A stretch of DNA of 64,000 bases, taken from Dysidea avara. Its lineage: Eukaryota; Porifera; Demospongiae; Dictyoceratida; Dysideidae. Under the pieces are notes generated by a model. That model searched no databases and was not told where the DNA came from. It worked only from the letters and a program-made list of their open reading frames with translations. The DNA lies in NCBI RefSeq assembly GCF_963678975.1, contig NC_089272.1, forward strand, positions 2,414,359-2,478,358, given 5' to 3'. The position numbers and the translations under genes are program-made. Below, one piece after another: positions 8,478-43,830 of this stretch; the stretch's first letter is position 1; every line of letters begins with the position of its first letter.

Positions 8478-9189
8478 AATTTGCTTTGTTTAAAATAGTT
8501 CAAGGGAAACCACAGCTGCTCAAAACTTTAAACTGTAGTTTAATCAATTTCGCCCATACACATTATATTATACACAAAATGGTAATGAAGTAAATACAAA
8601 GTGCGTGGCTTATACTAAATAACAGTGCAATATGTAGTAAACAGACACAGTCTGTATTAAGGAAATCAAGTGCTACAAATACGTATGTGTATGCATGTAC
8701 ATATTCTTAATTAATAGCAGACTCTAAGTAAAAATGTGTACATATTATGTGTGCATTATACTATAATGTTAGCCCTTAACAACTAAACAGGTTCTTTTAG
8801 CAGCACCTCAAGGACAGGATCACAATTAATATCTAACTCCTGTAATGCTGTCATGAATGTCCTCCATGTCTTTGGCTCTCTTCCATGAGTGGACCTAATC
8901 CAAGTTTTCATCACCTTTGTGCAGGCTGATTTCATGTCCCCAGTTTTTGATACACTTTCTTCGATAACATCCATGTCTTCATCTCCCAGTCTCAAGCAAT
9001 ATCCAATAATTTCCCAATCTGTAGCCACCTTAGGGACAATTTTCACTGCCATATTCATGGTCATGTGTTGATCTGTAAAAAAAAATTATCAGTTGAGATA
9101 TTAATTTTAGCAATCAGATATGCAATATTGCCTTATATGGGCATAAAAACTGTGTTGAACACAATAATTGTGACTGTCTCTTGGATAAT
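8478..9189. repeat. Duplicated segment, copy 1 (partner at 43008-43830)
   Basis: This stretch and 43008-43830 align through the death-domain exon and on both sides of it. Shared flank words include CAGCTGCTCAAAACTTTAA, AACAGTGCAATATGTAG, AAATCAAGTGCTACAAATA and GTGACTGTCTCTTGG. The duplication therefore covers the 3' end of a gene, its downstream sequence and part of the last intron. On the right it stops where the TA-flanked element at 9190 begins. Confidence 0.85.
8783..9072 (-). CDS. Death-domain protein, terminal exon (rest of gene not found)
   Basis: A 290-bp minus-strand exon opening after a polypyrimidine tract and CAG acceptor (9073-9075). It enters in phase 1 and ends at a stop at 8783. 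The roughly 93 residues form a death domain: a W-x-I-x-Y-C-L-x-L core (WEIIGYCLRL), an acidic D-E-D turn, then ACTKVMKTWI and GREPKTWRTFMTALQEL, which correspond to helices 2 to 6 of the fold. Death domains mediate homotypic assembly in apoptosis and innate-immune signalling; the partner here is unknown. It is about 80-90 % identical by eye to the exon at 43413-43702. No upstream exon was found before the transposon at 9190, so this copy may be a truncated duplicate. Confidence 0.75.
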
Positions 9190-10016
9190 TACCGTAGATT
9201 CCCTAAAAATTTGGCAGAAATAAATTAATTCCGTTTGTGTCTGGCCGAACAATTAGGATAAAAATGTACCAACCCAGTGCTATTGTCAAATTTTTAGGGA
9301 TCTACCCCTAATACAGTCTGCGCACTTCATGGCTATGTTATTTGTGATCCGTTTACTGCTTACTTTCTGGATTTATTTCTACAGGGACCAACAGGAACGC
9401 CTTGAGGCGGAGCTGACAATACCACAACACTCACTTGGCCGCAGCACTATATACTATGATTGCCTACATTATCCAAAAGAGATGGTCAATTCATTACATC
9501 ACTTTTGAATACAATCACCCAGACGTAATATTAAGGACTGATTTCAACACTAGAGGTAATAAAAAATAGAAACCACAAACAATAGCTAATATTATTAAAC
9601 TATCTCATGATAAATCTCGCTACCAGATGCTGCATGAAGTGCTACATGGCTTAACAAAGCGTTATCTGAGGGTGTATTATGTTACAAGGAGATGTGGGGC
9701 CAGGAGAGTTATGAAACGAATATCGTTTTGCAGTACTAAGTTGGCGTGATGTCACACGATGATATCGTTGGGTATGTTCCCTGAACAATTTCACACTTGG
9801 TGCTTCATCCAGCATCGAGGTAGCATATTGTGTGAGGTCACTGGGAATCCTCAGTGCTCAAGAGACCTTTGTCAACTAGTACTCCAAGTGCCGAAAAATT
9901 AGTGCGCTTATATTTAGAAACTTTCCTGCGCTTGCCGAAATTTAGAGCACATTGCGTTCAAAGCACAGGGAGTGCCGAATATTTAGAGATGCCGAAATTT
10001 TAGGGAATCTGCGGTA
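9190..10016. mobile_element. TA-flanked TIR element, ends CCGYAGATTCCCTAAAA
   Basis: Left end CCGTAGATTCCCTAAAA and inverted right end CCGCAGATTCCCTAAAA, each next to TA (9190-9191 and 10015-10016), as in Tc1/mariner-type insertion. The TIR continues as WTTYGGC. Inside, GCCGAA-ATTTAG words recur near the right end (about 9890-10000). I see no transposase; the interior looks non-coding. Confidence 0.75.
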
Positions 10017-26153: not shown

Positions 26154-26337
26154 CTTAACTGACACCCTTTATAGCTATTAAACCCTCAGTAACACTTCAC
26201 TTTTCATCTCTTACTGCATTAAAAACGATCGAGATAATCTAATAGAGCAGTCATGTAATTACTCTAATAGAGCAGTCAAGTAACTACTCTAATAGAGCAA
26301 TCAAAGCTACAGCTTGTAGTCACCATCTTTTCCCTTA

Positions 26338-26862
26338 GTCTCGTGCCCAGCCGGGCTCGCGCTAATGCGCAAACACCGTCTGGTGACAATGCTCGAGTTT
26401 CTTGGGCCCGGAAGTGCGATCCAGCCATAATATTGGCTGGCCAATCAGAATCTAGGAGTTGCGTAATCGGTTTAAAACAGTGAAAAACCATTCGAAAATG
26501 GCTAGGAATAAAGTAAAACTCAGAATAGGGCGTTTTCTAGATGCGATCTCTTCATTTATCGTATTAGTAGAGGGTAGCGTTTCATTTTTGGTGAAACGTC
26601 GAGTCACGATTCATAAGGTGAGATCAGAGAAAACAACTTGACAACAAACATTTTGAACAACCTTGGTGAGTAACTTCTGATAAATGGCTTTAAATCATCT
26701 CCTTTTTCGTCTGCTTCCAATACATTCATGCGATTATGCAACTCGTCGATTCTGATTGGCCAGCCAATATTTTGGCTGGATAGCACTTCCGGGCCCAAGA
26801 AACTCGAGCATTGTCACCAGACGGTGTTTGCGCATTAGCGCTAGCCCGGCTGGGCACGAGAC
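26338..26862. mobile_element. TA-flanked element with 115-bp inverted ends, GTCTCGTGCCCAGCC
   Basis: A 525-bp element whose first and last about 115 bp are nearly perfect inverted copies (GTCTCGTGCCCAGCCGGGCT... with GCTCGAGTTTCTTGGGCCCG inside). Flanked by TA at 26336-26337 and 26863-26864. The arms are far more GC-rich than the surroundings. No transposase. Confidence 0.88.
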
Positions 26863-27055
26863 TACTTTGCCCTATATAGTTAGCTATATAGCATTTATTT
26901 AAAGCATTGGATTTATTACAATTGGTAACTAAAAATAGCCTAAAATCCAATCTCAGAATTTCTAAAGTCTCAAAATTTTCCCGAGAAATGCCTTATTCAG
27001 CTACACCAACTTTCAGAAACCCCCTTTTAAAAATCCTAGATCCGCCACTGCTTTC

Positions 27056-28366: not shown

Positions 28367-28595
28367 AGTCACTGTGAAAAAAGAGGTGTGAAAAAAGAGG
28401 GATATAAGATGGTATTTCCAGTGGCTTATTGAATACAAAAAAGCTTGGTATAACCTGTATTATACTAACAATCTCTTGTAAGACTTCAGTTAATGTATTA
28501 CATATACTGAAACCATATATGCGATGGTATAGTGTGTACATTATATTAGATATAAGCTATTTCAGGTAATGTGATAAGTAAACTGAAACCATATA

Positions 28596-28864: not shown

Positions 28865-29215
28865 TATAGTCAGGGTTGTAAGCCTTTAAAAAAGGCCTTT
28901 TTGTGCACTTTTGGATAAAAGCATGAAACTTGGCAAAAAGTTTGTGTGTATGACAAAGATTATTTTTTGATAGGGAGCCATCTCAAATTTGACCTTTGGT
29001 GACCTTTACAGGCAATTTAGTGTTCAAAAACTATCAGTTTTGTCTCTCTTTTATGTTTGTGTAATCAAAAATCCACAAGCTTGGTGTCAAATTGATGCTT
29101 TTTTACCCTAAAGAATAAGTTGGTTTTTACAGAAAGTCTATAGCTTACTCTGTTCTAAAATTACAATGATTTTTGTGGTAAAATATGCCACTATTATCTC
29201 CCGCTCATGAAATAT
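28865..29215 (+). repeat. Left inverted end of the 12.7-kb unit
   Basis: Pairs with 41216-41553. Best-conserved blocks are within the first 170 bp (GTGCACTTTTGGATAAAAGC, TTATTTTTTGATAGGGAGCC, TTTGACCTTTGGTGACCTTT); beyond that only patches such as TGGTGTCAAATT and TCTATAGCTT still match. Confidence 0.85.
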
Positions 29216-30453
29216 GTAAGGTTTACTTTATTAATACTCTGCTGTTGTTTTTTTATCAAGGCTTTTTAGCACAAGTGCTGAAGGTCTGTACACTGTTAAA
29301 ACTGAAGTGTTGAAATAACACCAAAACCACATGTAATTTGTGGGTACCAAATATAACACCATCTTCAAGTGTAATACTAACTAACACAAGAGATGTGTTA
29401 AAATAGCACTAATATTAAGCGTTAAATTTGCACTACTCTTGTTATATTGTCATTACTAGTAATGTCATTTCAACAATAGTACATGATGTTACAACAATCA
29501 AAATTAAATTCCACTGTTGTTAGGTTCAGTTACATTGTTTATCTTTCTGTTGCTTTTATGTTCTTTGCAGCTGTATTCATCAGGATGTTAGATTCTGTAT
29601 AGGAATTACAACAGATAACATTGTCCTGTACATTGAAGTTTTATACATACCAAATTCTGTATGTAGATTCATTTCTCTCACAAACAGGCTTAATTCACAG
29701 TCCCCCATTGGATGATAAAGAATTCATTTGTTTTGCATCTTGTACAGTGTATCTAGTTCATGATGCTTGTTGATGAAACCCTGCCAGTTCCGTGTACAGC
29801 TGTGGAATGCTATATGTAAGTATATAACCAGTACACATATTATTTTCATTCTTGTTTATTCAAGTTCTAGATCTACCTTTGGTTAGCTGTGGATGCAATG
29901 TCTCCAAGGCAATATAGCAGTATCCTCTTCAAGTTCTGGTACAGCCTTTCCATTGTTGTGAGAATTGACAATAGTATTAATGTACTACTTCCTTCATGCT
30001 TGGAATGATCTACTGTAACCAAAGATATGTCATGAAAATTTAGATTTAATTACCTTGAAACATGTATGATGGATTTTCAGCAGCTACATGAAATAAAGAA
30101 AATTGCCATATAAAGTACGTCATGCAAGCATTTACTGTACATGATTATATGTTACTTACACTTAAGTGATATGTTGATCTGAAATCAAAATTGAAACTTT
30201 ACATTTCTATTATTGATACATAATTATCTCTTGACCTAACTTTACTTACCTGCTCATAATTCAGTGATGAATGGTGACGGCTACATGTACGACATACATA
30301 CCCAACTACACTTGTAGAATCGTCCTCATGCATGCATGAAAGTTCATCAGCATGAAAGTTCTACTGTTACATGATTATTAACAGACACTTGCCACATATA
30401 TACCTGTTATTAAATGTGTAAACTGCATATACAGTATGAAGTCACTATTCCTA
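29216..30453. other. Downstream flank of the SAMD3-like gene, non-coding
   Basis: No exon recognised. The word AGCACAAGTGCTGAAGGTCT at about 29269 recurs in the same orientation as CAGCACAAGTGCAGAAGGTC near 39775, on the other side of the two genes. Confidence 0.4.
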
Positions 30454-32767
30454 TTACAAAACTATGTTCTCAATGTCTGATACAAAACCTAACTGGGTTT
30501 TACTAAAGTTTGGCCCACTTTTAATTCCAAATAATTTTTTTTCTAAAAAGAGAAGACTTGTCTTCCAAGCTGATGGATATGCAATATTGAACGCATAGTA
30601 GCAAGCTATCAGTGCAGCTATTCCTTTCATTATAGAATCAACTCTTGTAATTTCTTCTTTTTCGACAATAAGTAACCACTCCCGGGTTCTTGGAGAACCT
30701 GCCTGCAAAATGTATGGCTCTGAAGTATCAACTCTTTCTATTTTGTCATCTGGATCATCACCATCCTATAATGAGAACAACCACAATGCTAAACAATAGT
30801 TACAATGCACAAAGAAACTTCTAATTATGTTTGGTTACTTTGCATGTTAACCATTGTACAACCTACTTTATTTGCACCAATTTAAAAATCCACACCTTAT
30901 TTAACACTTGCAAGCTAGTAAACTGCACTCACACACTCATTAAAAGTTTACATACCTCTAGCACAACTAAAATTTCTTCTGACTGTTTTGACATCTTGCT
31001 GTTAACTAATCTCCTTAAAAGTAGCAAAATGATGGATGCATTTGGATCTGTAAAAAAAAAACAAATAGAAAAAGTTGTCGTTACTATGCACATTACCTCA
31101 CCATTGCAAAGGTCTGCAGTAGACTTGCTACCCAACTCTGACATCACTGGTATAAGCTCTTTGTAAGTTTTCTTATTAGCTTGGGCTTCCAATTTTGCTT
31201 TGTAAAAAATTTTCGGTGCCCAAATCTGCCACTTCTCTTCAACCACTTTTTTAGGATCTTCGATCCCTGTGATCATTGAAAACTCAACCATCAGCTATAG
31301 TATAATTGGATGTATTGAGTAAGAATAATAGTTACACGACATGTATCTTACTATTTCAAACTCTTTGAGGGGTGGAAACTTTGACAAAATTTCTTTGATT
31401 GAAGGTTTGTCATCAAGAATCCATGTATGTCGATTTGCTGAGGTTAGCTGCATCAAGGAAATGATTCCATCTTTGCATTTAGATTTCTTTTCGAGTTGTT
31501 TATGCAGTTGTTCTAAATGCCCAGTATAGTTGTCCAATGAATACTTTTGTGCTGCTAAAGATGGGGTAGCTGCATGATTGGCTAAGGACTTTTCTTTCTT
31601 CAGCTTTTTTGGCGGGGTAGTAAAAGTCAAGCCAGAATTGTAACACCTGGGCTTGCGTCTAATATTTTTAAAGCGATTTTGTAATCCTTCAGTCCAAGAT
31701 CCCTAACGCAACAATAAAGTATGATAGAATTGAAAGAAATAGCTACCATGCAGTAACTCACATATCCACACCCAAGTGTATCTCCCTTTCCTTTCAAAAC
31801 ATGCTTAAAAATTTTTCTTGCAACTTCTTCATATTGTTCTAGAGTAGGGTATTTGCAATGTCCCAACATTTTTGCTACTGTCATCTGGATTATTTCTGTC
31901 CTGGCAGATTTAGTCATGTTTCCAGAATGCAGTGTGGCCATTGTTCGCTCGGAAAATTGTGTTGGAACAACAAAATCTTCTTCCCAACCCAACATGATGT
32001 CAGGCACAGTAGATTTGATGTTGCTGTCTTCACAATTAGCAGCTGAAGCAGTATTTTCCTGTATATCATAAACAAATAGTAGTGGTATTTATTATTATTA
32101 TAGAGAACATAAGTACTATTTAGCTATATAAACTAGCTAAAACATTTTATCAATGCACTTTACAGCATACTGTAGCTGACCTACTCTATAACTATATACA
32201 GTATATAGCTACCTTGAAATGGTCAGCATTGTTGTAGGTGGCAGCTTTGTCCTCAGGCGTCTTAGTCTCTAGGTGTTCTTCCAATACCTGCATGCATACA
32301 CGCATGTACAATAGCAAACAATCATAGTTATATTATATGCGTACACATATGACTACGGTAGGTGTACCTACATTGTCATTAGAAAACAAATCGGAGTCTT
32401 GATGTGGATATGGTGTGGAGGAACTGCATTGTGAACCTGGTGAAGAGGTTGTAAAAAGTGCTGTTCGTGGTAGATCGAAATCTCCAAACCGACTAAGCGT
32501 TTCATCAGCCGGATCATAGGATGACGAACACTGATGGAGTGACGGCTCGGGTGTAAGCAGCTGTGTCTCCCTTCCTGAGGCTTTAAGCCTTAAAATCATC
32601 TTTTGTAGTTTCTTTCTATCTCCAAGAGCAACTATTCCCAGTTCACTCATATCATCACGGTCCAGTTCAAGTAGCACTACACGGTCTATCTTGTTTGAGC
32701 GGAATACTTCCACGACGCTGTCGTCAAAGCCAGCCTTTACCAGCATTTCACACACTTCTTCCCCCAT
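30454..32767 (-). CDS. SAM-domain protein, SAMD3-like family, 571 aa, 7 exons
   Basis: Exons (minus strand): 32767-32372, 32287-32213, 32058-31762, 31702-31352, 31294-31102, 31047-30956, 30765-30454. All introns are GT-AG, phases agree, and the frame is open to a stop at 30454. The start is the ATG at 32767, directly before the fold. Residues 1-66 form a sterile alpha motif (GEEVCEMLVKAGF, VVLLELDRDDMSELGI, GDRKKLQKMILRL), a helical interaction domain. A Ser/Pro-rich linker follows, then a conserved body (SWTEGLQNRFKNIRRK at about residue 270) and a C-terminal helical region (ALIACYYAFNIAYPSAWK). This layout is that of animal SAMD3-like proteins, many of which are multicopy. Function is unknown; partnership with the neighbouring transposase-like protein is inference from the divergent arrangement. 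Confidence 0.85.
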
Positions 32768-32900
32768 GTAGCTGTAGCAATACACACACCTTTGCACAGT
32801 AGCTTTTAGCAATATGTCTTATTGACCGCAGGATCTATCCGCTATCATCAAGCACTAGCCACGTGATCTACATCGCACGTGACTCATCCAATACCGGACG
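32768..32900. promoter_or_regulatory. Shared 133-bp divergent promoter region
   Basis: The two start codons (32767 minus, 32901 plus) are separated by only 133 bp, so both genes must be driven from this interval, unless there are undetected 5' non-coding exons. It contains CACGTGATCTACATCGCACGTGA (two ACGTGA boxes, about 32860-32882, first 20 of 23 bases: CACGTGATCTACATCGCACG). No clear TATA box. Confidence 0.6.
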
Positions 32901-35900
32901 ATGAATAATTGTCCACTGTGTGCTGATTTTTCTTCTCCTACGACTCAGCTATTATTGCGGCACATTGGAAAAGTACATGCAAATACCCCAGAATTTCACA
33001 TACAATGTAAGTGTGCCGTCACCTTTACCAATTTTCACGCGTACAAAAGGCATCTCAGGAAGAAGCATCGGGAAATTTATGGAAATGATGGGAACAGAGA
33101 ACAGGTGCGTGGCTAATGGTAAAGCATGTAAAATTAACGCTAACAGAAGTCTATCAGGCAATCCACCAAGATGTTTTGTATATCAACTACTAGCTAGCTA
33201 GCTATACATACTGTAGCTAACTCAGTACATTTTGGTATATATGTTGCTAAAGATGATGATAACTTTATAATACATGCTGAAAGTGAAAGTGTGCTTTAGA
33301 AATAATATTTTAATAGGTGGAGCACAATGGCTTAGATCCTGAATCAAATATGGATACAGGTAATAGTGGGGCAGAGTCATCCGATAATGCTGTTCCCAAT
33401 GCCCAGTCTGAGTCATTAGAAAAGCAAATAGCTATGTGGATATTGAAGCTGAAAGAAGGAAGAAAACTAACACAATCTGCCACCGATGAAATATTGTCAG
33501 ATGTTACAGAACTTTGCTCTACTGTTGTTAGTAATCTGGGAAATGACTTACGTCAACGATTGGAGTCGGCCAGCATAAATCCAAATGATATTCCTGGCTT
33601 TGATGCTATGTTTAATGAAGCATCACCCTATGCAAATCCTTTCAAAAACCTGAAAACACAGTATCTACAGCAATCATTTTACCAGTCAAATTTCAACCTA
33701 GTTGTGAGTAGCTACACTATTATACCAAGTCTGACAAAATCAGTCTTATATAGCTGGAAAATACATGTGTTTACAAATGATTGTGTATCTCCAATTCTGT
33801 GCAATCTATAACAATTCTGCAGGTTTCAGGAAAATCTCCATAAATTGCTACAATAGTGGTGAAAATGTTACATAGTTATGATGTCCAAAGAAAAAGTTAT
33901 TGAATTTAATTTTGAAATTATGGTCAAAATTTGATGGGCTATAAGACTGATTTTATAAGACCAGCTAGATTACATATTTACATTGTAAGCCCTTTTTAAT
34001 TGATACATGAAGGGACAAAATCTGTACATATATATTCATTGATATTAATAATTATTAGTGGCCAAGCAAAGGGATATCAACTTAGCTTTCTAATCAACTG
34101 ACAATTCTCAAATGAAACTTTTACACCGTAAAACCATTCAAATGTGTTGGCTCAACATTTTTTTAATTTTACGTGCAGGCTTATGCACAACTAGGTAACA
34201 ATGTTAAAGTTGTTATTGTACTACATAATGGACATAGACCATTCACTACGGTTACACACATACTTTCATGGTTCATGACTATGGGACTTAAATTAAAATC
34301 ATTGTTTTATGAAGGAACCAATTCAAGTTACGATTGGAACGGAGCTAGTTTGGAGTGGTGAAAGTCCATCACGTCGAGTAAAGGAAGTTTCTGAGAAATA
34401 CACATATGTCCCAATTTTACAAGTGTTGGAGAGCATGCTGATGTGCCCCTCTATATTTGAAGAGGTAACAAAGATAACACTAATGGGATAGAATGTATAG
34501 CACAAAATTTCTGCTGCTTTGCTAATTACAATGAAACATTAAGATAATTTTTATTTCTGTAGACAGTGAAAGGTCACCAACGTTCTGATAACATAATGGA
34601 AGATTTCTGTGACTCCCCAAAAGCAAAAAACCACCCTTTGCTTAGCACTGACACAAATGCTATTCAAATAATGCTTTACTTTGATGAGTGTGAGCTGTGC
34701 AATCCATTAGGGTCTTTCCGTAAGAAACACAAACTTGGTAAGGAAATAGTGCACTTGCATGCCTTAAACCACTCATAGGGCACTCAACTGTTCCAATTCT
34801 TCTTGCACATTTTATTTGTCAGTGATAAATTCCAATCTTATTGACATTCTCTCTTATACTTGACATTTGCTATCAGAGTTACAATTGTATTACATAAGTA
34901 ATAAAACTTATTGCAGGGTGTTACTATTACACAATTGGAAATGTTCATCCTTCATTTCGGTCTACACTGAATGCAATCCAACTACTGTGTTTAGTAGAAG
35001 CACCGTTACTAGAGAAGTACGGACATGACAAAATACTACAGCCTGCTGTTGATGATATTGCACAACTTGAAAAGGTCAGTGTAATGGATGGAGCCTTGGG
35101 TATCTACCGTATAAGTACAAATTTTGTGAGGGACGTAATTTTAGTGGATTTCATGTTTTTTTTTGCCTTTCCCACGAATATCAGGATTGGTTCTATGCTG
35201 TACAATAGATACTCCAAGTGAAAACAAGTGATCCTCAAAAATAAAACCACAGGAATCCTGAAATTTGCTAATGCGCAAAAAAAAATTAAGTTCCTCAAAA
35301 ATTTGTACGAATACTGTAACAGTATTGATTTATGTGGCATAAATCATTAACACTATGAATCTTTTTTAAGCTTGTCAATTGTTTAATACAGGGGGTCATT
35401 CTTCAAACTTTTGAAGGACAGAGAAAGATATTTGGAACTGTAGTTTGTGTCAGTGGTGATAATCCTGGAAGTTCTGCTATAGCTGGATTTAAAGAAAGTT
35501 CAGCAGCATATCGATTTTGTCGCCAGTGCATGTCTACTAACAATGAATTCCAATATCAGGTACTACATAATCAAATAACAACTTATATTATGGTGATCTA
35601 CATGTTCTCAATAGTTTCATGAAAGTAAATTCGTTTTACGCTCCCCTGATGAGCATAGGAGTCTTGTAAAACTGCTGCAAATCCCTTCACTTCGTGATTA
35701 TTATTCAGTAACATTCGGAATTAACAGAGACTCAATACTGAACTCATTAGATTACTTTAGTGTTGCTGATGAGACTATGCCCCCTGATGTAATGCATGAC
35801 CTGTTAGAAGGATACTTACCATACACGACTAAGCTAATGCTGAGTTATTTCTTCAGGTTGGGCATTAAAATTAATGCTGTATAACCTTTAGTGTATGTCC

Positions 35901-38434
35901 AAAGCAATCATGTAAATTTAAAATTTCCTTGTGAGCATGACTGCATGTATAAATAATGATTTCTGCATGCGTATGACAACAGAGCTGTAATATTAATGTT
36001 TTGTTATTACCACTGTAGCAATGGAATATGTGGCATTGGTGATCTAAACAGCATTATGGCGAACTTTGATTTTGGCACAGAATCATCATCCATACCTTCA
36101 CCTATAACTACAAACCACATCCATTCAACTGATAAAACTCGGCTAGGACAGACAGGTACAGTGATGCACATTCACAAATGCCCACAATTATCGTATTATG
36201 TAAAAGTAAGCGGTGAAATTTGTGGCAAAACAGCAAACATCATTGCAAACTATAGTGACTGTCACTAAGATAAGTTGCATCACTTTTCTAGTCATTATTT
36301 TGCTACAGATTGCACCACTTATTTTTTACAGTATAAAGTCACATTTTTTGCAGCTAGCCAAATGTGGACTTTAGGTAGAATGCTTCCGGTTATGATTGGT
36401 CATCTCATCCCAGAAGATAATGAAAATTGGAGTCATTTTCTTCAGCTGTTAGATATTATCGACCACATCTTTTCACCTACTGTTAGACCTGAGACTCCAG
36501 GATACCTGGAAGTTGTGATAGAAGAAAATCTGCAGGACTTTGTGGATATCTATGAAATGTCTGTTCTTCCTAAAATGCACTTCCTTACTCATGCAGCAAG
36601 ATTTCTGGCAAGGTATGTGTATATTTCGTACCTGGATGCATGTTTTTCAAGTCATAATTATTATTTGGCAGAATGGGACCATTAGTGAGGTACTGGAGCA
36701 TGCGGTTTGAAGCTAAGCATCAGTACTTCAAATCGCTTGCAACACGAATGGGAAATTACATTAACATTACATATTCCTTGGCATCAAGACACCAAACATA
36801 CCAGTGCTATATTTTAAATTCTGATACAGGGTACTGCTCTACCAAGTGGACAATTGGAAATGGTAAATCATAACTTTCTATTGCACATTTATTAACAATA
36901 TTCACATAGGAGAGCACGTAAAGGTGCACTCTTCTGAATTTAGGGTAAATTTATTATACTATATGTTGGAAGAAGATGACTTGGTTTTTAGGTAAGTACT
37001 CACAATTGATGGTTTTGTTTAATTGTTGAGCTAGACCATTAAAATATTTTCCTATATAGTATTTAGACACCCAAAATTATAGTGAAAATTAATTTCCTTC
37101 TTAGTATATAGTATAATAGTATTGGTTATATTATTTTAATCACCAAAATAATTTTTGTTAGATAATAGACAATTTGGCAACAAAATAATTTGGGACTGGT
37201 AGCAATTTGCTATTCTTTTTTTCTGCCAAAGGAAAATAGAGTGGAGTCACCCTATTAAATACTATAGAGGATTTTACAACTGTGTTCTTCTTAAGTTAGA
37301 AAGTTTGGAGTGTCAAAATAGTTAATAAGCAACCCATTCAATTGCAAATATTGTTATTTAAGATTACTACGTATGTGGTACGTATATATGCATGTACCAC
37401 ATATATCTGTATTACAGCAAGGCCAAAACACACGCCTTGGCTCAAATAAATTCCTTATCCCAAACAAATTCCTTATACACACCTAACTGTGTTTGTTTCA
37501 ATGCCAGGATGCTGGAGCTAATTCCAGCAATGCTGGAGCTAATTCCAGCAATGCTGAAGCACAAGAGTTTACAAGATTCCAAACCTTTAAGTCTATTAGC
37601 TACACTGTATATTAAGCACTCCCAGCATTGTGCACAATCACTCTTCACCTTGTGTGCTCTAGCGGGTCAAAACTCATGTATAAGAAATACATTCCAGGGC
37701 TTTATATAAATATGATGTGTAGTATATACTTCAGAACAATGCCTGTCAATTCGTTATGCATTTTTTGTACTTGTGGTTCACACTTCATGAATAAAAATAC
37801 ACAATGCATATCAAGTATCTGGAATACTGCCATTAAAATTTGTAATATAAATTTTCTAAAAGGTAACACTTCTTTATCTTTGCTTCAGATATAATAAATC
37901 TTGAATGTAATGTAAAATATGGCATATAAGGATTCAATTTACATGTTGCTTGAAAATAAGGATATAAATTGGTACTAATTAATTTATAAACCATTAGAGG
38001 ATGTCTTAAACAATGAATGCATTGTGTAGGTCAATGCCTTTGTTGTAAGCAATGATTGTGTGGTGACTGTTGTTATGAAAATGATGTTTACAAATATTTC
38101 CTTCTTTACGTATAGTCCTGATACTGCTGTGATACATGGAATGAAATTGAAGCCTGGTGTTGTGGTAGTCACATCTGTAGAGGACAAAACCAACCCCCAG
38201 TTTTGCCAAATTCGCAGACTATTCATTGTGAACAACAAGTTACGTTTGGGTGTTAGCAAACTCATTGTCATAGACTACTTGGCCCATTATCACTCATGGA
38301 TGGTCAAAAAGCAAGATGATCAGTTGCAAATATTGGATTCAAAGAATGTACCCAGTCGACAAGTACTAACACTTCGTACAATGCGGGGTTCTTACTCTCT
38401 TAATTTTTTGCTTACTTTAAAGCATGCATTGTAA
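32901..38434 (+). CDS. C2H2 zinc-finger / CMC-type DDE transposase-like protein, 823 aa, 12 exons
   Basis: Exons: 32901-33104, 33317-33703, 34315-34464, 34563-34737, 34917-35074, 35392-35559, 35615-35856, 36019-36155, 36354-36612, 36672-36862, 36910-36991, 38116-38434. All junctions are GT-AG and phases agree, giving one open frame. The N-terminus has two C2H2-like fingers (CPLC...H-x4-H; CKC...H-x4-H). The core shows LYFDECELCNPLG (Asp288), SGDNPGSSAIAGF (Asp381), CRQC (401-404), MPPDVMHDLLEG (His475) and MRFEAKH (Glu640). These match the DDE triad, C-x2-C and H motifs described for CACTA/Mirage/Chapaev (CMC) transposases. A separate C-terminal domain fills the last exon. Intact and interrupted by many introns, so either an intron-rich active transposase or a domesticated gene. 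Intron 11 (1.1 kb) holds a 22-bp tandem repeat near 37505-37555. Confidence 0.85.
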
Positions 38435-41215
38435 TAAAGTTTTTAACAATTATCACTGTACAAACAGAATATTATAGTTATGTGTACAAGCGATGTGAAA
38501 TTATTTCACTATTGTATTTACTTACAATAATTGTTTATTGAATATTTTCAGTGTCATGAAAATGGTTGGATATAAGTTCACAAGAAGCACTGCAAAGGGG
38601 ACACATCCACAGCATGTTGTACGGTAGTATGAGGTCCAAAGAAACAAATGCAATGGTAGCTATCCAATAGATATCCCTACCTCTTGAAATTTGTTGATTC
38701 AGAATGAGATGTACAACATTCTGTTCTTGCATATCTTTTTGTCTGGATACAAGGTGTGGTTACCACAGGTGTCTACAGAAATCCTAAAATGGTAATATAT
38801 ACAAATAAATACAGGGAATGTCAAATAATCAATCTCTGCAGTCACAGTCAAGGACAACTGAGAATTGAACGTGTATGATTGGCCAAAATTATGGCTGCCT
38901 ATGTGACCCAAATCCTTCTGAATCACATTTTTATCTCTGTAGATTGGACCTTGACTGCAATTCACTGCAAATCTACTAGCAAGTGCTTTGTGTCACCATT
39001 TGCACATATAGGGCAAATTGTAATAACTATTATTCTATCTATACATATATGATAATATGAACACTAGCTAATGCTCTCTACTCCCTGTTCTATACTCCAA
39101 AATGTTACTGTAAACTACTACATGGTGAGATATGGGAATAGTTATTGCACCAAGTTAAAAAGATAAGTTACAGGATCTTATTACTCATTGGCGCATACAG
39201 CTAGTTTTAACTACAATGCTTAGAAACCTACCCTACATGGCTATGTGTAACACTGGAAAGATCAGGTAAGTTTAAACTACAAGTGGTCACAATTTTTTTA
39301 TTGTGGTTATCAGTGGTTAGTATAGAAACAACAATGTTGAGCTTGTTAAAGAAACCCACTTCATGAAGCAATAGCACAAAGGCTGGTGTTGATTTTACAG
39401 TGAGTGTGTTAATTAAATGTCTTGGTGTAATGTTAACAATGGGATAGTAATTGCAACACTTGACAGTCTTTGTTAAATTTGCACAGAGCGTGTTAAAATA
39501 ACTACCCATTTTTAACAGTGTAGGGAACCTGGTCCTACAGCCTGTTGAAAGTTGTTACATAAGTGTATTTGAAAAGGTGGGAAAAGGTGAAAAAATTCAT
39601 GACTGGTGTGACAGCCTCAAACCTGCAGCCATCCGATTAATGCTCAAATGCTTACAGGAGTCTGCCAGGCAGAAATTTCATGTAGTATCCTAGGAACTCT
39701 ACAGAGTGACTTATTATCTCAAAGTACCCCATATGGAACCTAATGACATTAGTTTATTATTGTTAAGGCTTTACAGCACAAGTGCAGAAGGTCTGTAGGA
39801 CATCTGGTCCTACACACTGTTTAAAGTTGTTGCATAAAGTGTACTTATTCTGCATAACAATTTGCCATGTTAAATAGGCATGATACTTACTGCCATGGGT
39901 TACATGCCCATGCAGGAGGTCATTATTCTGAATGGTGGGTTTGTGTACGAGGAACAATTTGTGTGAATTTTGTGATTCACTAAATTTTAGCTGCATGTTT
40001 TTGTACAAATATATACACATATTTCAACTAAGCTTTCTGGATTCTACTTTTGTTGAATTGTCGTAGTGAAGACAATTGCTTGTGCTATGTAGTTTGCGAT
40101 TGCTGAAATTTCTGCTGTAGACTACGTATTTAGATTTTATGTGAACTCGCAAATGTATAGTATCACTAATGTTTAGTATCTATCACTGAAGAATATTTGA
40201 AACCACCTTATACAATAGCAACTCAGTATATTAGTGCATATCATACTATATATAAGCATTGTTCTTATTATATTTTTAAAGCTATTACTGTGAAACCTCT
40301 CTAATTCAACACCTGTATCTAATTCTGTAATCTGACACCATTTGCTGCACCAATTAAATAAGCCTTTGTCTGTTTGATATTGCTTGATAGTCCAACATCC
40401 TCACACAGCTTTTTGAGCAATATAATGGGTGACAACTAAATTATAACCCAGTATATAATACGAAAATTCTACACAGGCAACTAAACTAGGTAAAATTGAT
40501 TTACATACCATATAATTATAAGTATTGGTCATTGTGCAGGTTTTAAAATCAAAACATTTGTCCAAAATTAAGTAGTATGACTTAGTTGTTATGTTGTACA
40601 TTTTGAAACAACTGTCTGGAATGTAGTAAGCAGTTTTCTTGATTCTTATTTGTAATTATTGTACAGTTTACTGTGTAATGTCAATAGGGTTGCAATAAGA
40701 TAGTAAAGGAATTGGCAGTTTATATTATTTACAATAACAGCATAATTACCACTAGCCAAACAGCATTATAATATTGATCACCAGGTTAATAAGCACTGCT
40801 TAATGCTAGTTCCTTGTACTACCAATCACAACACACCAACGTAATGCTTGATATACTGTATATACAGCAATTAAGGATACACATGCAATGGGCATTGTTA
40901 CAGGGTGACAACTAAAATATACTGCATGCTTAAGTGTAGCTACTGGCTATCTTATATTCCATAGACATTAACACCATTTTAGCCAAGTGCTCTCTATCTT
41001 ATGTAGACAAGTATGTAGTGCATTTTACTGTACAATGTACGTACGTTCTATGTCTTGAAGTTAACTTTTATACAGATTTGGTCTCTTAACACAGGTGGCC
41101 ACTATAAGACAGATTCCATCTTACAATTGTACATGATACTACCTATCTAACTCAGCATCTAATAATTATGTTTGAAAGACAAATCTGTACTGTGTATAAG
41201 TATCATTATTGCATG
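38435..41215. other. Right flank of the cassette, non-coding
   Basis: No convincing exon on either strand. Two related words, CCTGGTCCTACAGCCTGTTGAAAG-like (about 39529) and TCTGGTCCTACACACTGTTT (about 39804), mark an old internal duplication. Confidence 0.4.
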
Positions 41216-41553
41216 ATGTGCGTGGGCGGAGGAAAATATGACTACTTTTTGCTCTTATAAATGGCTATAACTTTGGAATAGTAGAAGCTATAGAATTTCT
41301 TTAAATTTTAGTGTACGCGTCAGAGAAAGAGCATTAATTTGACACCAGGTTTGTGAATTTTGAACCATTTATAGGTGAGAAAGATGAAAAACTGACCATT
41401 TTAAAGCATTAAATTGGATGTAAAGGTCACCAAAGGTCAAATCTGAGGTGGCTCCCTATCAAAAAATAACCTTTATGATACATACAAACTATGTGGAAAG
41501 TTTCATGCTTTTATCCAAAAGTGCACAAAAAAGGCCTTAGCACCCTAACTATA
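41216..41553 (-). repeat. Right inverted end of the 12.7-kb unit
   Basis: Inverted partner of 28865-29215; see that entry for the shared blocks. Its outer edge joins directly to the right part of the CACTG element (GGATTATACTACAG). Confidence 0.85.
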
Positions 41554-41734
41554 TGGATTATACTACAGTAATTAGTATAATACAGGATTTATATTAAGGC
41601 TTATTTGTATTCAATAAGCCACTGGAAATACCATCTTATATCCCACTTTTTGCACAGTGAGTGTCTATGTATTATTAATGATATGCACATGTCAGTCATA
41701 ATAATAAAGTTTACGTTGTATATACCATAATTTG

Positions 41735-42054
41735 CACTGTGAAAAAAGAGGGATATAAGATGGTATTTCCAGTGGCTTATTGAATACAAAAAAGATTGAT
41801 ATAACCTGTATTATACTAACAATCCCACATAAGGCTTTAGTTAATGTGTTAAACATACTGAAACCATATATGTGATAGTATAGTGTGGGCATTATATCAG
41901 ATATAAGCTATTTCAAGTATTGTGGTAATTAAACTGAAACCATACATGCAATAGTATAGTATGCATTATACTAAAGTATAAGATGAGTATAATACAGGAT
42001 TTATATTAAGGCTTATTTGTATTCAATAAGCCACTGGAAATACCATCTTATATC
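41735..42054. mobile_element. Second CACTG element, right tip missing
   Basis: Begins CACTGTGAAAAAAGAGGGAT and follows the short element at 56900 throughout, but stops at CCATCTTATATC. The last about 20 bp, including CAGTG, are gone, so no target duplication can be seen. It lies only 75 bp after the large CACTG element, in the same orientation. Confidence 0.85.
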
Positions 42055-43007: not shown

Positions 43008-43830
43008 AACTTGGCTTTGTATAAATCATTGGAAGGGAAACTTCAGCTGCTCAAAACTTTAAGCTACAGTTACATACATGTTCTAAAAATGCCAGGTTTT
43101 CACAGGTTAGGTAACATATTCACCCTTTACCTTAATCACTTTTTCCCACACACATTCGATGGTAATAAATTAAAATACAAACAAAGAGTGTATCTTACAC
43201 AAAAGAGTGTGGCTTACACTAGATAACAGTGCAATATGTAGAAAACGGACACTGTCTATGCTAAGGAAATCAAGTGCTACAAATATAGTAATTAACTGTT
43301 TTACGTGTGCATGTGTACGTATGTACATTTTAATCTTAATAGCAGAATTCTAAGTGAAAAAAGTGTACATATGTATATGCATGCATTACACTGTACTGTT
43401 AGCCCTTAACAACTAAACAAGTTCTTTTTGCAGCACCTCAAGAACAGGATCACAATCAATATCTAACTCCTGTAATGCTGTCATGAATGTCCTCCATGTC
43501 TTTGGTTCTCTCCCATGAGTAGATTTAATCCATGCTTTTATCACCTTTGTGCAAGCTGATTTCATGTCACTAGTTCTTGATACACTTTCTTCGATGGTAT
43601 CCATGTCTTCGTCTTCCAGTCCCAAGCAATATCCAATAATTTCCCAATTTGTAGCCACCTTCGGGACTAGTTTTACTACCATATTCATGGTTACACGCTT
43701 ATCTATAAAAAAAATAATTAGTTGAGATCATTAACTTTATAATTATAACTAAAACAATCACAATTGCAATTCTGCCTTATAAGGGCATACAAGCTGTGTT
43801 GGACACATGTGACTGTCTCTTGGAAAACTG
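43008..43830. repeat. Duplicated segment, copy 2 (partner at 8478-9189)
   Basis: See copy 1. This copy has about 80 extra bases around 43090-43190 relative to the first. Confidence 0.85.

Follow-up and report, generated by a model that had tools for sequence, protein, structure and literature searches.

A CMC-like two-gene transposon in the sponge Dysidea avara carries a SAM-domain gene divergent from its transposase gene

A 64,000-bp stretch of the Dysidea avara genome (the window; G000:C1:2414359-2478358 in the 550.8-Mb, 108-contig genome analysed) contains a two-gene transposon that is inserted, with duplication of TA, into an unrelated high-copy repeat. The element encodes a transposase and, in the opposite direction, a SAM-domain protein; because related copies keep this back-to-back pair, the SAM protein is most likely the transposon's own and helps it to move. 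The identity of the element as a transposon and the pairing of transposase with SAM gene leave us little room for doubt. We judge it probable that the complete explanation is a two-gene CMC (CACTA/Mirage/Chapaev) transposon whose SAM partner acts in end pairing or in transposase control; for end pairing taken by itself, the chances would be about even.

Results

The element ends at CACTG...CAGTG inside another repeat

Short copies of the repeat that surrounds the element (the target repeat) read GTCTGTAGGACACC where the window has GTCTGTA/CACTG...CAGTG/TAGGG (slashes mark the element ends), jumping directly from window position 29290 to window 39519-39522. A pattern search recovered this uninterrupted junction in 16 of 20 target-repeat copies; some of these carry single changes, and L009 has lost a short stretch next to the junction. 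Copies elsewhere point to the same boundary. In C5:22.13M, a truncated SAM-gene copy that is 96% alike (copies are named by contig and position), the likeness ends at window 29289 and the flank is unrelated, and in copies of a second subfamily (B at C14:7.93M, C15:1.14-1.16M and C1:31.18M) it fades no more than about 12 bp from the corresponding position. All five copies compared share CACTGTTAAAA at the stopping point and differ in their flanks. When inverted CAC/GTG pairs were scanned, 29291/39520 came top in the window, tied with one pair that uses an outside repeat, and 4862/13111 ranked first in B. The terminal inverted repeats of the window element are identical at 11 of their first 12 positions. 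Taken together, the CACTG ends where likeness stops, the unoccupied target sites and the limits of the related copies place the gene-bearing element at 29291-39520, nested in another repeat.

The initial annotation had drawn the boundary further out, at inverted repeats of about 340 bp. These repeats exist and do flank the pair (28892-29163 and 41268-41538, 77% identity across 273 bp), but they are not its own ends and belong to the other repeat, of about 2.5 kb. Nor do they bound independent copies: the seven others with at least one end read, all of them pair or SAM-gene copies (C5:22.13M, C14:7.93M, C15:1.14M, C1:31.18M, C11:11.89M, C4:48.87M and C12:7.44M), show a CACTG/CAGTG end instead. 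The annotation had staked its reading on finding the repeats at other copies; taken literally, this result fails it, and what is removed is the boundary only.

The two genes and their products

Two intact, divergent, multi-exon genes 133 bp apart had been proposed, and conceptual models of 12 and 7 exons bear them out (Table 1). In these models, which were built from the sequence, all introns are GT/AG and internal stops are absent from both genes. The space between the start codons probably holds a shared promoter that drives both.

The D, D, C-x2-C, H and E motifs ascribed to the plus-strand protein were recovered as well: read by eye, YFDE, SGDN, C-x2-C, MHD, H-x3-H and FEAKH follow one another in sequence order. 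No transposase family in Pfam matched the window protein. Transposase_21 scored 4.5e-4 in an open reading frame of the relative L065 (19.9 bits, below the cut-off of 28.6), and zf-Di19 reached 2.4e-5 and 3.8e-5 in the matching exons of L064 and L065, both under the Pfam cut-off. A search of solved structures returned no match to the transposase; scans with it gave zero pattern matches in viral contigs and 11 in prokaryote contigs, of which 0 were confirmed.

In the window's minus-strand protein, SAM_2 and SAM_1 both exceed the Pfam cut-off (Table 1), which makes it a SAM-domain protein. In its counterparts from the diverged subfamily, SAM_1 scored 2.8e-5 (L065) and 1.6e-4 (L064), the latter slightly under the Pfam cut-off. 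The closest solved SAM domains are those of SAMHD1 (1.2e-4). A profile of seven SAM sequences found the SAM half in both L064 and L065; of the remaining exons it matched exon 4 in the former and exon 3 in the latter, exon 3 of L064 reaching 0.23 at best. The profile matches lie on the expected strand, and 4 of 403 open segments scored E < 0.01. A viral-contig scan with the SAM protein gave zero pattern matches.

Transposase and SAM gene are linked in three subfamilies

A divergent SAM match lies within 10 kb of 23 of the 37 transposase clusters, and a SAM match in any orientation near 26 of 37; in 1000 random placements, for which the sizes of C7 and C12 were guessed, the number averaged 0.07 and never exceeded 2. 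Seen from the other gene, 24 of 60 SAM loci are linked to a transposase. The top 14 transposase rows all have a divergent SAM match (14/14), and the transposase N-terminus lies divergently alongside SAM exon 1 in six of the six places examined, window included. Divergent pairing persists even at about 35% transposase identity, and the layout is common to three subfamilies.

These counts are lower bounds, drawn from at least 78 SAM-protein matches (76 of 169 candidates scored), at least 82 transposase matches (55 of 411 scored) and 34 matches to the SAM exon of subfamily C (59 of 59 scored). Transposase rows were collapsed into clusters by hand and SAM loci by script, and extra exon rows of counted loci were excluded. 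The cluster at C14:7936768 was scored convergent, yet it is divergent relative to its own partner, because merging fused two SAM loci. When the window SAM protein was the only query, 16 of 39 SAM clusters, some of them halves of one locus, lie within 12.2 kb of a transposase, 14 divergently; this count is lower because the subfamily C partner is too diverged for tblastn.

The B element itself (C14:7.93M) measures 8,250 bp and has TA at both sides; the C15 copy is 99% like it, has other flanks and is interrupted by about 13 kb. Subfamily C encodes a transposase about 35% identical to that of the window, with its core in one exon, and has the ends CACTGTAAAAACTG; its C11 element is 9,940 bp long. 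Compared on the SAM side, the C11 and C4 copies match at 98.6% as far as the end and one chance base past it. On the opposite side the likeness among C11, C4 and C12 is 99% and reaches the end, overrun by a few chance bases when C4 is compared; C12 does not share the SAM-side stretch examined. The duplicated bases are TG in C11 and AG in C4, and exact 2-bp duplications occur in four of the five copies with both ends read, the third base differing in those four. Likeness of 98-99% among subfamily C copies at separate sites suggests recent movement.

Three further observations concern relatives of the pair. C14 7927351-7941530 holds a second, more diverged transposase-SAM pair a few kb from B, and C14 9460652-9512053 a close relative that retains both genes, each broken by long insertions. 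Past the SAM gene of L064, at 8921-9871, repeats of about 21 bp (GCAATTGAATTCGTC...) lie in direct and inverted orientation, possibly a subterminal repeat array.

Ratios of nonsynonymous to synonymous substitution rates (dN/dS) are below 1 for both genes, as estimated by the Nei-Gojobori method with no formal test; comparisons on few changes tell little and several copies carry a stop. For the SAM gene, B versus C1:31.18M gave 0.21 (405 codons, dS 0.29) and, over 56 codons of the same copy, 0.18; the window versus C5:3.19M gave 0.27 (254 codons, dS 0.54). Values for C14:9.46M were 0.41 and 0.60 in two parts, and for C5:22.13M 0.42; B versus C15 yielded 0.29 on two changes in the first part and an undefined ratio in the second. 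For the transposase we obtained 0.40 (186 codons, dS 0.19), 0.44 (195 codons, dS 0.04) and 0.54 on six changes (365 codons). The earlier suggestion that the SAM protein is a transposon-encoded factor is thus upheld by the linkage in 23 of 37 clusters, by CACTG ends that enclose both genes and by dN/dS below 1.

Possible role of the SAM protein and competing explanations

In the mechanism that we propose, the N-terminal zinc fingers of the transposase would recognise the element ends and its D-D-E core would do the cutting. The SAM protein would oligomerise via its SAM domain, and its conserved later part would contact element DNA or the transposase. As a result the two ends might be paired, or transposase activity set, akin to TnpA in maize En/Spm. 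GTGTTA/TAACAC, a motif picked post hoc, occurs 4 and 3 times in the terminal 300 bp, versus 0.29 on average, and at most 2, further inside.

Several results weigh against a two-gene transposon with such a partner. An unbiased 7-mer test for subterminal arrays gave p values of 0.78 and 0.99 (window element), 0.07 and 0.36 (B) and 0.17 and 0.046 (C). As the window element shows no signal and the other two no more than a weak one, the test does not demonstrate a TnpA-like binding target. A divergent SAM match is missing from the 10 kb around 14 of the 37 transposase clusters, as is any transposase match from the same distance around 36 of the 60 SAM loci. The C15 copy is flanked by TA at one end but by CA at the opposite one, with no matching duplication, and the stops present in several copies count on the same side. 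Structure prediction for SAM exon 3 alone returned a predicted local distance difference test (pLDDT) score of 43.7, which is useless, and was not used.

The SAM protein might instead be a transposon gene that counters host silencing or regulates the element's transcription, with no part in handling the ends. This seems to us possible but rather unlikely: linkage and selection fit it equally well, SAM domains are general interaction modules, and a convincing subterminal repeat array was not found. Nothing direct counts against it; the second protein of plant CACTA elements is described as necessary for transposition (PMC2613891), a point that bears on the sponge element by analogy only. The unlinked SAM loci could also be taken to mark the SAM gene as one of the host's own, or as passive cargo acquired once or several times, and weak matches limited to the SAM domain may be ordinary host genes (C11:9199977, C9:16889920). 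Passive cargo, however, would drift and get lost. Three subfamilies, with transposases as little as about 35% identical, retain the pair in the same divergent arrangement, and dN/dS is 0.21-0.27 at dS 0.29-0.54, both of which speak against cargo; we regard this origin as very improbable.

A different delimitation would make the element 12.7 kb long, ending in the inverted repeats of about 340 bp, with the short copies as internal deletion derivatives. The repeats do flank the pair, and both ends are common to the short copies; yet CACTG/CAGTG ends and a TA duplication sit exactly at the presumed deletion junction, and copies of the pair elsewhere break off at CACTG, beyond which the flanks are unrelated. 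On the strength of these limits and of the unoccupied sites we rejected this delimitation, to which we attach next to no credence.

The target repeat and neighbouring features

The left inverted repeat has at least 43 match rows in the genome (40 of 1182 first-look candidates scored), and copies of the target repeat were examined at 20 loci and then at three more. The repeat begins TAGTCAGG and ends CCTAACTA. Exact 3-bp duplications flank 7 of the 11 copies with both ends read, versus 5 of 110 mismatched pairings. Four copies, that of the window included, have no matching 3-bp duplication. Target-repeat copies gave zero transposase matches (28 loci, then 3 loci) and no SAM match better than E 0.25, excepting L001, which is the window itself; some copies extend past the stretch examined for genes. 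The target repeat (28867-29288 plus 39523-41552; copies L009-L031) is a unit of about 2.5 kb with inverted ends of about 270 bp and no gene found within. TGACCT occurs twice, four bases apart, within the best conserved part of its inverted ends, in the left and the right consensus alike (about 28985-29010 and 41425-41450); the doubling has a putative likeness to nuclear-receptor half-sites.

Adjoining the target repeat, a repeat of 43-60 bp occurs four times in both orientations (28387-28444, 41599-41656, 41735-41794 and 42012-42054). Near 28370 a related stretch starts CACTGTGAAAAAAGAGG, possibly the sign of a small element with CACTG ends. The segments 26336-26469 and 26731-26864 form an inverted repeat (134 bp, 96% complementary, 261 bp apart) that resembles a miniature inverted-repeat transposable element or a foldback. 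The open frame 43413-43727 on the minus strand encodes a Death domain (Pfam 1.8e-5, over the cut-off) and is probably an exon of a host gene.

Table 1. Features of the two-gene transposon and its target repeat (window coordinates)
Feature	Position	Strand	Remarks
Two-gene transposon, CACTG...CAGTG	29291..39520	.	10,230 bp; termini where homology between copies ends
TA, left target duplication	29289..29290	.	GTCTGTA/CACTG
TA, right target duplication	39521..39522	.	CAGTG/TAGGG
Left terminal inverted repeat (CACTGTTAAAA...)	29291..29323	+	imperfect, ~33 bp
Right terminal inverted repeat (...TTTTAACAGTG)	39488..39520	-	imperfect, ~33 bp
Transposase gene	32901..38434	+	823 aa, 12 exons; conceptual splice model and relatives
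Transposase exons 1-6	32901-33104, 33317-33703, 34315-34464, 34563-34737, 34917-35074, 35392-35559	+	
Transposase exons 7-12	35615-35856, 36019-36155, 36354-36612, 36672-36862, 36910-36991, 38116-38434	+	
Transposase exon 1, two C2H2-like fingers (CPLC...H...H; C.C...H...H)	32901..33104	+	read from translation
First acidic residue (YFD-E), presumed catalytic	34683..34685	+	kept in L064, L065 and B; role by comparison
Second acidic residue (SGDN), presumed catalytic	35458..35460	+	kept in L064, L065 and B; role by comparison
C(2)C motif CRQC	35518..35529	+	CRTC in L065, CRSC in L064, CRQC in B
MH of PPDVMHDLLEG	35792..35797	+	read from translation
H(3)H motif HFLTH	36578..36592	+	HFLVH in L064 and L065, HFLIH in B
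Glutamate of RFEAKH, presumed catalytic E	36709..36711	+	RHEAK in L064 and L065, RYEAKH in B
Space between start codons	32768..32900	.	133 bp; ATGs at 32901 (+) and 32767 (-)
SAM-domain protein gene	30454..32767	-	571 aa, 7 exons; conceptual splice model and relatives
SAM-protein exons	32372-32767, 32213-32287, 31762-32058, 31352-31702, 31102-31294, 30956-31047, 30454-30765	-	
SAM domain	32582..32761	-	residues 3-62; Pfam SAM_2 2.1e-7, SAM_1 1.1e-6
SAM-protein exon 3, region beyond SAM domain	31762..32058	-	profile counterpart in L065 0.003; L064 0.23
Left part of target repeat, outside element	28867..29288	.	includes left inverted repeat
Right part of target repeat, outside element	39523..41552	.	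includes right inverted repeat

Discussion

By its motifs, ends and duplication length, the element is best placed as a putative two-gene CMC transposon that would work like a CACTA element, the strict CACTA ends and 3-bp duplication being absent. A 2-bp duplication is a feature of Mirage. The CMC/CMCT group is described as having C(2)C and H(3-4)H between the second D and the last E, CA..TG ends for the most part, and duplications of 2-5 bp (PMC12730594). Here CRQC and HFLTH lie between SGDN and RFEAKH, an order that, by eye, is the same in L064, L065 and B; the termini are CACTG...CAGTG in the window, B, C15, C11 and C4, and 2 bp are duplicated in four of five copies. A strict EnSpm/CACTA definition asks for CACTA...TAGTG ends (PMC4158355) and a 3-bp duplication, whereas the sponge elements have CACTG...CAGTG and 2 bp. 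Two further marks of that group are a Transposase_21 (tnp2) domain, for which the L065 frame scored below the cut-off and the window protein gave no hit, and a second protein that binds subterminal repeats; the sponge element does encode a second protein, and a post hoc motif is denser at its ends, where the unbiased 7-mer test is weak or negative. Chapaev, with a target duplication of 3-4 bp (PMC4079192), and Kyakuja-Dileera-Zisupton (KDZ), with 7-8 bp (PMC12730594), were rejected on the 2-bp duplication. ESTA elements duplicate TA (PMC12730594), as happens here, where TG and AG are found in addition.

If this placement is true, a SAM-domain family without clear function gains a testable home as the second gene of a CMC transposon, and animals have a counterpart of the two-protein En/Spm system known from plants. 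Animal proteins named SAMD3 or SAMD3-like begin with a SAM domain, after which comes a long stretch whose function is unknown. The window SAM protein, which the initial annotation called SAMD3-like, has the same gross layout. Genes named SAMD3-like may be transposon genes, a warning for annotation. More tentatively, animal CMC transposons could have an ancient SAM partner, of which vertebrate SAMD3 and the multicopy SAMD3-like genes would be domesticated or live copies; that SAMD3 is a domesticated transposon gene becomes directly testable. The recent movement suggested for subfamily C makes an activity assay realistic. In open-licence literature, searched by titles and abstract openings and with Repbase Reports not covered, we found nothing relevant on SAM-domain or SAMD3 proteins with transposons, nor on CACTA elements in sponges.

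Maize TnpA arises by alternative splicing and is related to the transposase transcript unit; the second gene of the sponge element is, in contrast, separate, divergent and predicted to encode a SAM domain. In other respects plant CACTA elements such as maize En/Spm, with TnpD and TnpA, are alike: they move by cut and paste, their inverted ends are short and of CACT type, and they encode a D-D-E transposase together with their own second protein, differing in their CACTA ends and 3-bp duplication from the CACTG ends and 2-bp duplication seen here. A full CACTA element comprises a transposase and ORF2 (PMC4158355), and in plants TnpD and TnpA are each described as required, TnpA binding subterminal repeats (PMC2613891). 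The 12 exons of the window transposase, set beside the one-exon core of subfamily C, recall intron loss in plant CACTA transposases (PMC4158355). Fungal transposons that carry TET/JBP genes are likewise DNA transposons, some of them CMCT, with an extra gene beside the transposase (PMC12730594); their enzyme was gained by several unrelated groups, whereas the SAM protein keeps one fixed divergent layout. The initial annotation had compared the SAM protein in its role with the second protein of En/Spm, a likeness that would fit this anatomy.

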